This document shows positions 7,195 through 63,039 of a stretch of 64,000 bases of DNA, piece after piece (position 1 is the first letter of the stretch; each line of letters starts with the position of its first letter). A program made the position numbers and the translations under genes. Source of the DNA: Candidatus Saccharimonadota bacterium (GTDB lineage: Bacteria > Patescibacteriota > Saccharimonadia > Saccharimonadales > Saccharimonadaceae); NCBI GenBank assembly GCA_946893605.1, contig OX335598.1:1-64000 (forward strand), read 5' to 3'. The notes under the pieces were generated by a model. It was not told the origin of the DNA and did no database searches. It worked only from the letters and a program-made list of their open reading frames with translations.

Positions 7195-8156
7195 GTGAGC
7201 GACGACATCACGACGAAGCCAGTAAACTTAAACGAAGATGATGATTTTGATCCAACGCTTATAGACGAAGAAGAATCGGAAGATTTGGATTCGTTGACAA
7301 CTGGGCAATATTTGGACGACGTGTCGGATGACTCGGTCAGGCTGTATTTGCGTGAAATTGGTAAGATTCCACTACTTGGCGCTGAAGAGGAAATGGACTT
7401 GGCGCGCCGAATTGTTGAAGGCGATAAAAAGGCTAAGGACAAGATGGCTGAGGCGAATATGCGTTTGGTGGTGTCAATTGCTAAGCGTTATTCTGGTCGT
7501 GGTTTGGACTTTTTGGATCTGATTCAAGAGGGAAATACTGGGCTTTTGCGTGCGGTTGAGAAGTTTGATCCAGATAAGGGATTCAAGTTTTCGACTTATG
7601 CAACTTGGTGGATTCGCCAGGCAATTACGCGTGCGATTGCTGATCAAGCGCGAACGATTCGTATTCCAGTTCACATGGTAGAAACGATCAATAAATTGCT
7701 GCGTACTCAGCGACGAATGACACAGGAATTGAACCGTGAGCCGACAATTGAGGAATTGTCTAAAGAATTGGACATGGAGCCAGAGAAGATTGAATATGTC
7801 ATTAAGATTAAGCAAGACATTTCTTCTTTGGACGCTGGTGTTGGTCGCGACGGTGAAGATGACGACTCTGTATTGCAAGATTTTATCGTTGACGAAGATA
7901 CCGTTTCACCAGAAGATTCCGCTTCAAATCAATTATTAAAAGAGCAAGTTCAGGAAATTCTATCAAGTTTGAGTGATCGCGAGCAAAAAATTGTTCGAAT
8001 GCGTTTTGGCTTGGATAATGGTAAAACCACACTTTGGAAGAAGTTGGTCAGGAATTTGCAGTTACGCGTGAGCGAATTCGCCAGATTGAAGCTAAGGCAC
8101 TAGCAAAACTTCGCAAGCACAAAGATGCGAAAAAACTTTACGAATATCTGGATTAG
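7195..8156 (+). CDS. rpoD: Primary RNA polymerase sigma factor (frame shift near the end)
   Basis: The housekeeping sigma-70 that directs RNA polymerase to promoters. Region 1.2 ([15 protein letters not shown]), region 2 ([30 protein letters not shown]), region 3 and region 4.2 are all visible. The frame shifts near 8027 between FGLDNGK and [11 protein letters not shown]. One missing C in a CC run restores [20 protein letters not shown] and a normal end at 8156. The start is GTG at 7195 behind AAGGAG. Its region 2.4/3.0 should recognise the extended -10 boxes seen throughout the window. The stop abuts the stop of the convergent kinase-like gene. Confidence 0.95.
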
Positions 8157-58706: not shown

Positions 58707-59351
58707 ATGATTTTAGAAATAATAATAGTTTTGACTGTCATATTGCTGTCTATGACTATTCATGAGGCTATGCATGCTTTTATAGGGTATGCACTGGGCG
58801 ATAATACCGCAAAAGAAGAGGGAAGATTAACACTTAATCCCGTAAGACATATTGATCCGGTGATGACTATTTTGCTTCCTTTGATTATGGTGGTGCTACA
58901 TGCTCCAGTTTTCGGAGGGGCTAAGCCTGTTCCGTTTAATCCAAATAGAGTCCGTTTTGGCGATTGGGGGGCGGCTCTTGTTGCTCTTTCTGGTCCAATT
59001 ACTAATTTAATAATCGCCTTTATTGTGTTTGGCGTCGGAGTGTTTAGCGGCGTTATTAATAATGCTGGGTCAGTACAGCCTACGATATTTGGACTGATTA
59101 TTTCTACTGCTGTATCGGTGAATCTGGGTTTTTTTGTTTTTAATATGCTACCAATTACGCCTCTGGACGGATCTAGAATATTATATGCCGTAGCGCCAAA
59201 TAGCGTCAGGAGTGTTATGCAAAAAATTGAGCAAAACGGCGTTCTTTTGGTGATGATTATAGTTGTGCTGTTTTCTGATGTAATTGGGCAGGTTATGTCG
59301 GGCTGTATTCGGGCAATTTTGCGTGTATTTATGAATATATTTGGTGTATAA
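58707..59351 (+). CDS. Site-2 protease (M50) family membrane metalloprotease
   Basis: An intramembrane zinc protease that cleaves membrane-bound regulators or leader peptides. The HEAMH motif is at about residue 19-23 and the third ligand lies in PITPLDGSRIL. Five or six hydrophobic segments. There is no PDZ domain, so this is the minimal form. Its stop codon overlaps the -10 of the following RNA gene. Confidence 0.88.
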   Translation: MILEIIIVLTVILLSMTIHEAMHAFIGYALGDNTAKEEGRLTLNPVRHIDPVMTILLPLIMVVLHAPVFGGAKPVPFNPNRVRFGDWGAALVALSGPITNLIIAFIVFGVGVFSGVINNAGSVQPTIFGLIISTAVSVNLGFFVFNMLPITPLDGSRILYAVAPNSVRSVMQKIEQNGVLLVMIIVVLFSDVIGQVMSGCIRAILRVFMNIFGV

Positions 59352-59359
59352 TGGAAGCA

Positions 59360-59508
59360 TACCCCGGATTTATCCGTGGGCGCGTATGATTTTCCTAACA
59401 TCATATGATAGGGAGCTTTAATGATTTATTGTCGTGGCAATAAGTTGCGAGCACCCACCTTGCATTTATGCGGGGAATATCTAGCGCCCACAGACAAGTC
59501 TAGGGTTT
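59360..59508 (+). ncRNA. ssrS: Candidate 6S RNA
   Basis: A structured RNA of about 150 bases between the protease and rnpB. TATAAT at 59347-59352 overlaps the protease stop. GTGGGCGC (from about 59377) pairs perfectly with GCGCCCAC (from about 59484); an outer ACCC/GGGT and two small hairpins flank it. On the 3' side CACCTTG leads a hairpin CCTTGCA-TTTA-TGCGGGG; E. coli 6S RNA has a matching CACCTTGAAC hairpin on the 3' strand of its central bubble. A TTATTG/CAATAA hairpin could close the end loop. The identity is inferred by pattern, not by a model search. Confidence 0.55.
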
Positions 59509-59527
59509 AGTGCTATAATATACTATG

Positions 59528-59863
59528 TAGTCTGTTAGGCAATCGCTTAAGTTATACTTAAGAGGAAAGTCCGGGCAGCGAAGGATACGACAGTCGTTAA
59601 CGGCGACCGGAGGCAACTCTAGGGAAAGTGCCACAGAAACGAAACTACCTTCGTATTTTATATACGAGGGAAAAGGTGAAACGAGTGGGGTAAGAGCCCA
59701 CAGTCGTCTATGGCGACATAGACGAGAGGTAAACCCTGTCGGCTGCAAGGAGATTTGCAAATAGGATTATCCGTCCGCAGATCGATAACCGCTTGATTTG
59801 TTTGGCAACAAGCAAACTAGATAGATGGTTGCCCTAGACAGAACCCGGCTTATAGGCAGACTA
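59528..59863 (+). ncRNA. rnpB: RNase P RNA
   Basis: The catalytic RNA that matures tRNA 5' ends. P1 pairs TAGTCTG with CAGACTA. GAGGAAAGTCCGGGC, GCCACAGAAACG and GGGGTAAGAGCCCAC are the universal core blocks, and the 3' side has ACCCGGCTTATAGGCAGAC. Bacterial type A. The promoter is TGCTATAAT at 59511-59519. Confidence 0.95.
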
Positions 59864-59868
59864 TGAAT

Positions 59869-60460: not shown

Positions 60461-60965
60461 TTACTCCTTATTACTACGCTCAGATTGCGACCAGCCATCT
60501 GAGGTTTTTTGCTCTAATATTGCGTCTTCACTAAGGTGTTCCATGATTTTGTCGATCAATTCGTAGCCGATCTCTTTATGGGCCATTTCGCGACCTTTGT
60601 AGACCACTTGTATACGAACTTTATGTCCGCCCTCTAAAAATTTACGGATCTTCTTCAGCTTAACCTCTACTTGTCTCCAGCTCCTATCTTTAGACCAAAG
60701 CGCATCTGCTTTAGGTCTCCAGATTTAACCCAGCGCCGATTTTCTGTTGATCCTTCATTTTTTGGTACTGGTACTTACCCCAGTCAATGATTTTAGCAAC
60801 TGGCGGATTGGCTCCCGGTGATATTTCAACTAGGTCAAGATTCATGTCGTTGGCCTTACTTAAAGCCTCTTTAAGGGACATGATTCCTAGCTGCTCGCCA
60901 TCAGGACCAATTATCCGCAGTTCTCTTGCACGGATTGCTCCGTTGATACGGATTGATTTATTAAT
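60461..60965 (-). CDS. infC: Translation initiation factor IF-3 (AUU start, two frame shifts)
   Basis: IF-3 checks the start codon and blocks early subunit joining. The chain reads [40 protein letters not shown], then [12 protein letters not shown] and [16 protein letters not shown]. No ATG/GTG/TTG precedes it; ATT 60965 with GGAGA upstream is the likely start, as in E. coli infC. One A is missing near 60740-60743 (restoring [14 protein letters not shown]) and one near 60671 (restoring GDKVEVKLKK). Its absence from simple ORF calls is explained by these three facts. Confidence 0.9.
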
Positions 60966-61049
60966 CTCTGGCTCTCCTTTTTTGAAGCAATTTTAGATTA
61001 ACTCAGTTGCTATTGTAACAGAGATGTTTGTTATTTTCAAGGATAATAA

Positions 61050-62639: not shown

Positions 62640-63039
62640 GGGGCTGATATAGCTTTCGACAATTGGACCTTATCATGACATTCTGCGAGCCGACGATACG
62701 CGTAAGTATATTTAGATGCAAACTTTGTTGCAAAAGCAAAGTCATTCGTAGCGAGCGCTTTCGCTCCTAAGATGGCCTTTGCGCCAATCGCTGCCTAATT
62801 TTTAGCGATCATCCTTGTATTGTGGCAACAGTCAATATCTAAGGGTGTTATATCTATGTTGCTTGCTATATATTTGGAAGTAGCGGATATGTAGGACTTT
62901 TACTACGTAACGGAACTCGGTTTTCTTGGTTTATTTTAAATCCGAGTAGCGTTATTAAATAAATTTAGATAAGCCTATGCTCGTAGACGAATGTTGTGAT
63001 ACCAGTTGGACCCGGGGGCAGTACCCGGCAGCTCCACCA
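62640..63039 (+). ncRNA. ssrA: Transfer-messenger RNA (tmRNA)
   Basis: Rescues stalled ribosomes by tagging the nascent chain. The tRNA-like ends are GGGGCTGATATAGCTTTCGA and GTTGGACCCGGGGG...CAGCTCCACCA, with an acceptor of 7 pairs and encoded CCA. The tag frame runs from GCA 62718 to TAA 62796: 26 codons starting ANFVAKAKSF and ending PIAA. Pseudoknots flank it. TATAAT lies at 62620-62625. Confidence 0.95.

Follow-up and report, generated by a model that had tools for sequence, protein, structure and literature searches.

A preliminary description of a Saccharibacterium contig had put forward a candidate 6S RNA, a small RNA that mimics an open promoter and so occupies RNA polymerase, in the short space between a protease gene and rnpB, and this raises the question of whether a 6S gene is present at this locus and, if so, how the RNA might work. 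The sequence analysed, referred to below as the window, comprises the first 64,000 nucleotides of contig OX335598.1 (assembly GCA_946893605.1), and all features are on its forward strand unless stated otherwise. Sequence comparisons led us to the view that positions 59354-59510 are the 6S RNA gene of this organism, in a divergent form, and we place the probability of this reading at about 0.9. The RNA is about 157 nt long, single copy and structurally conserved, and it shares homology with 6S RNAs already described. It thus belongs to the 6S family, an ordinary one, here in an unannotated place.

The locus and its recurrence in Saccharibacteria

The open reading frame directly 5′ of the RNA (58707-59351) encodes an M50 protease (Peptidase_M50, 5.1e-10), and the -10 hexamer of the RNA gene, TATAAT at 59347-59352, overlaps the TAA stop codon of this frame (59349-59351). 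The RNA itself corresponds to the 157 positions of the two covariance models described below (R1 and R2; 137.5 bits with R2), its ends being those given by the models. At 59510 it abuts the rnpB promoter, an extended -10 element with the sequence TGCTATAAT at 59511-59519, and rnpB follows at 59527-59868 (RNase P RNA class A; RF00010, 265.4 bits). The overlap of the -10 with the protease stop codon and the contact of the 3′ end with the rnpB promoter had both been pointed out in the preliminary description and were confirmed, as were the structural features that it had named: a perfect 8-bp closing stem, formed by GTGGGCGC (59376-59383) and its full complement GCGCCCAC (59484-59491), and a 3′ hairpin led by CACCTTG (59456-59462). 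The predicted folding energy of 59347-59519 was -64.6 kcal/mol, compared with -42.7 +/- 4.1 kcal/mol for 200 shuffled sequences, none of which folded as well (z -5.35).

When a 261-nt stretch was compared with all 4227 Rfam families, taking matches up to E 10, RF00013 (6S RNA / SsrS) matched at 59359-59509 with 25.8 bits (E 0.0012), and the sole other match was a chance one to a microRNA. The gathering score of RF00013, which is an annotation threshold and not a biological trait, is 46.4 bits, so that the window lies 20.6 bits short of it; the proposed RF00013 search, if judged by the Rfam cut-off, would thus have gone against the finding, and at curated thresholds RF00013 gave no match anywhere in the genome. 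Because the score is below the cut-off, annotation misses the 6S gene.

Homologues of the RNA were found by DNA search in 25 of 61 genomes, including that of the window, and the first covariance model (R1) was made from these 25 sequences, 24 from the window's own family and one from another family of the same order. With R1, matches at E up to 0.001 were obtained in 137/151 genomes of the family, 158/197 of the order and 81/286 of the phylum, nearly always one per genome. A wider model (R2) was rebuilt from a second alignment (A2), which holds 70 of 98 loci, the other 28 being second copies of places already included or further members of the same family. R2 found matches in 118 of the 286 phylum genomes and none in the remaining 168. 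From the genomes missed by R1 in the family and order searches, a sample of 21 was searched again with R2 (E up to 1); ten of these still gave no match, among them three of the four members of one genus. A loose pattern scan yielded 80 named loci. R2 matched all 26 from Saccharibacteria or Saccharimonadia and a single further locus, from an unclassified bacterium; the other 53 gave no match. These named relatives are also the basis for assigning the window to Saccharibacteria (Patescibacteria). The 6S gene recurs across the small genomes of Saccharibacteria, mostly with a score that Rfam rates too low, and with models of this kind it can be detected in most members of the group, where annotation overlooks it. 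Two genomes of the set (G295 and G352) each carried two 6S-like places, as is seen in bacilli; these could be paralogues or the product of mixed bins.

Relation to known 6S RNAs

The identity of the RNA was examined in both directions, by asking where RF00013 falls among the loci found with our models and where our models fall among accepted 6S genes. At a permissive threshold RF00013 matched 6 of 20 homologous loci of relatives, in the same place and with up to 45.8 bits. Over the 286 phylum genomes it gave 19 matches, three of them above the cut-off, and 17 of the 19, including two of those three, fell on R2 matches; five of the 19 genomes had contributed training sequences to R2, and among the other 14 the two models coincided in 12. 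R1 coincided with 11 of the 19. Outside the phylum, R2 was applied to ten genomes and gave four matches (E up to 1), in two Bacillus genomes and one Cohnella genome, all of which were RF00013 genes above the cut-off; a named Saccharibacterium searched alongside them scored 148.6 bits. Of the eight bacillar places that RF00013 scores above its cut-off, four were missed by R2, and neither R1 nor R2 recognised the 6S RNA of E. coli (ssrS). The connection with the proteobacterial form therefore depends on RF00013. The proposed 6S identity is supported by the agreement of two separately constructed models, RF00013 and ours, in both directions, on the same places.

A close likeness exists to the 6S-1 type of B. 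subtilis, with which the RNA shares the closing stem, helix P2, a central bubble with a small 3′ hairpin, an apical arm, the core GGGAGnC...GnCACCCACCU, an alignable template and start region, and a single gene. It differs in length (157 nt compared with about 190-200), in having a shorter apical arm, in the neighbourhood of M50 protease and rnpB, and in its score 20.6 bits under the Rfam cut-off. In the R2 alignment the window sequence GAUUUUCCUAAC stands opposite GUUUUGACCGAAC of the 6S RNA of Bacillus sp. EB01, a sequence complementary to the B. subtilis product RNA published as GUUCGGUCAAAACUA (PMC12005410). With E. coli 6S the RNA shares the general layout and the CACCUUG that heads the 3′-bubble hairpin, although the divergence is too great for R1 and R2.

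A 6S-like fold would also be expected of a relative of Ms1, an RNA that, according to PMC9130861, has such a structure, is found in many Actinobacteria and binds RNA polymerase. Ms1 binds the core without sigma and is not used as a template. In favour of this interpretation, the sequence on its own does not tell core binding from holoenzyme binding. Rfam includes an Ms1 family, however, and the cmscan search of the 4227 families, taken to E 10, gave a match to 6S and none to Ms1; furthermore, the homology to bacillar 6S RNAs is at the level of sequence and extends to the template and start region (GUUUUGACCGAAC / GAUUUUCCUAAC). We consider an Ms1-like RNA improbable, and a 6S RNA proper remains the preferred reading.

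Promoter, neighbours and covariation

A separate transcript would be expected to have a promoter of its own, of which a conserved -10 is an indirect sign. Just upstream, TATAAT or TATACT was present in 25/25 close relatives, the window counted, and among 67 sequences of the larger set the exact TATAAT occurred at the expected place in 51 and a hexamer with at least five of the six letters in 63, compared with 1.0% and 11.5%, respectively, for random 20-nt windows of the same loci (three of the 70 rows were skipped: L015, at a contig end, and the duplicates L066 and L071). The hexamer lies outside the models, but in the first alignment (A1) the start of the model was placed directly behind it, so that its place is not independent for the 25 A1 sequences. 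The preliminary description had characterised this genome as dominated by extended -10 promoters, and in the window TGNTATAAT is indeed enriched (14 occurrences, 3.6 expected), with plain TATAAT at the level of chance (59, 58.7 expected). In the RNA's own promoter the TG is one base too close to the hexamer (TGTATAAT), and so this is not a textbook extended -10. At the 3′ end, TTT was present in 60 of 70 sequences, as in a terminator-like T run. In most relatives a T run follows the outer closing stem, whereas the window has only GGGTTTAG, and with so weak a U run some read-through into rnpB is possible.

The order of M50 protease, 6S RNA and rnpB is conserved. In 24 of 25 loci the RNA is preceded, at a distance of 5-109 nt, by the end of an M50 homologue, and the one exception is cut by a contig end. 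Of 20 loci scanned for rnpB, 18 have it downstream in the same orientation, at a distance of 17-1134 nt. In relatives a gene for a NUDIX-RNase H fusion usually lies between the 6S gene and rnpB (L004, L006-L008, L010, L012-L015, L017, L018, L020, L021 and L023; assigned by Pfam for L006 and L012 only and by look for the rest), whereas the window genome and the relative closest to it lack the gene at this position.

This arrangement bears on a second alternative, in which the RNA is a structured element of other function, an rnpB leader or a protease 3′ UTR, that merely resembles 6S. In the window the RNA does touch both neighbours, as such an element would; against this, it has its own conserved -10, and the match with true 6S genes is reciprocal. 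Moreover, among the 18 other loci with rnpB, all but one have more than 100 nt between the RNA and rnpB, a space mostly occupied by a protein gene. An element of this kind thus seems slightly less probable even than an Ms1-like RNA, and we return to the 6S reading.

The structure itself was assessed from changes at paired positions. In A2 (68 distinct sequences) 39 of 45 pairs showed compensatory change and 92.8% of cells were paired, compared with 71.2% after shuffling (0/500 shuffles as good), and the covariation signal was lost when the partners were slid by 1-3 columns. A2 was fitted to the structure, and its pair counts lean towards that structure; in the unfitted MAFFT alignment A1, however, RNAalifold also detected compensatory change, in 15 of 26 pairs. 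The rod, made up of closing stem, P2, central bubble and apical stem, is kept by compensatory change, and the proposed check for covariation of the stems in relatives was therefore passed strongly. That the fold is due to chance, with no RNA gene present, might be suggested by the RF00013 score alone, which is below the cut-off, but this reading, to which we gave next to no weight, is in our view already refuted by the covariation (0/500 shuffles) and by the near-universal single copy in the family.

All nine pairs of the outer closing stem (59360-59368 with 59499-59507) and all six modelled pairs of the inner closing stem, the 8-bp stem of the preliminary description, showed compensatory change. 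Helix P2, in which GAUUUUCC (59388-59395) pairs with GGAAUAUC (59474-59481) with a single U-U mismatch, had 96.4% of cells paired and compensatory change in six of seven pairs, and is well supported as a rod-forming helix. On its 5′ side the central bubble, as placed by the alignment, consists of UAACAUCAUAUGAUA (59396-59410). It is followed by the apical arm (59411-59456), in which GGG at 59411-59413 pairs with CCC at 59454-59456 before a terminal hairpin. The small hairpin on the 3′ side of the bubble (59458-59475; CCUUGC at 59458-59463 with GCGGGG at 59470-59475) comes after CACCCACCU, and its two helices (9 and 10) had 88.6 and 91.5% of cells paired. A helix like that by which the central bubble collapses in B. 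subtilis was also tried (GAUA at 59407-59410 with UAUC at 59478-59481); only 41-50 of 66-68 cells pair, which gives no support for such a helix as a feature of the whole group.

Predicted template, proposed release and the sigma factor

A 6S RNA would be expected to carry a template for product RNA, and by alignment with the Bacillus sp. EB01 sequence GUUUUGACCGAAC this template is predicted at 59385-59399, a segment that includes the 5′ strand of P2. The B. subtilis product RNA starts at C40 (PMC8876501); from the alignment with the Bacillus template, the predicted start in the window is opposite C59399, which would give a product of sequence 5′-GUUAGGAAAAUCAUA. From homology we infer that the RNA sequesters polymerase and is released by this product. 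The classical 6S cycle is likely to be the mechanism: once nucleotides return, polymerase would copy the bubble into a short product RNA from C59399 (5′-GUUAGGAAAAUCAUA...), and this would unwind P2, so that the RNA would leave the polymerase.

In a more tentative, two-state design of release, the bound state would have P2 formed between GAUUUUCC and GGAAUAUC; after a product RNA of 9 nt had been made, a hairpin on the 5′ side of the central bubble would close around exactly that template, and the 3′ hairpin would be extended. This candidate hairpin (59385-59405, in which 59385-59390 pairs with 59400-59405) is exclusive with P2. For the free RNA, folding predicted the two-hairpin state to be 1.9 kcal/mol better than the P2 rod, a point against the 6S reading, and when 9 nt of the template were blocked the two-hairpin state was predicted almost alone. 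Comparative support for the hairpin is mixed: 82.4% of cells were paired, with a covariation score of 0.221 compared with 0.101 after shuffling (0/500), and a stem of at least 5 bp was possible in 54 of 68 distinct sequences compared with about 11.5 expected after shuffling, but pair changes on both sides were no better than in shuffles (202/500). As two bacillar 6S RNAs fold likewise, the hairpin is not special to this group.

The effect of 6S RNA is usually explained by its action on the housekeeping sigma factor at the time when cells enter stationary phase and alternative sigma factors replace it. In this genome, estimated to be 83% complete, a search with Sigma70_r2, which would miss other types of sigma factor, gave one match, the gene at 7195-8103, whose product is the presumed partner of the RNA; among 21 genomes there was exactly one match in 13, two in six, five in one and none in one. 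With a single sigma-70 factor found, 6S RNA here probably tunes all transcription, and would dim the transcriptome as a whole rather than switch between sigma factors. The reading frame of the sigma-70 gene breaks where region 4 begins, and the usual sequence of this region goes on in a different frame, which is probably due to an indel in the assembly. An infC-like gene (60461-60980, reverse strand) is also split over frames, and this fits indel errors in the assembly and the low estimate of completeness.

The main interest of the RNA lies in its spread through a phylum whose members have small genomes, and in the role of 6S in cells with a single sigma factor. That it is conserved in bacteria with genomes of about 0.7 Mb and one detected sigma-70 suggests a more basic role, in which the total of transcription is tuned to the supply of energy or nucleotides. 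More tentatively, Patescibacteria might have a 6S branch of their own, mostly under the Rfam threshold, that serves as a global single-sigma dimmer with two-state release, an idea that we regard as doubtful in this full form. A literature search that covered few subscription journals found no paper on a 6S RNA of Saccharibacteria, Patescibacteria, TM7 or the candidate phyla radiation; a previous bioinformatic survey, cited in PMC8876501 and covering 6S RNAs of over 1600 species, may list some of those described here. The diverged RNase P RNAs of these groups likewise needed lowered thresholds, according to PMC8172020. The tmRNA of the window (62640-63039) scores just 90 bits against its Rfam model and contains a long insertion.
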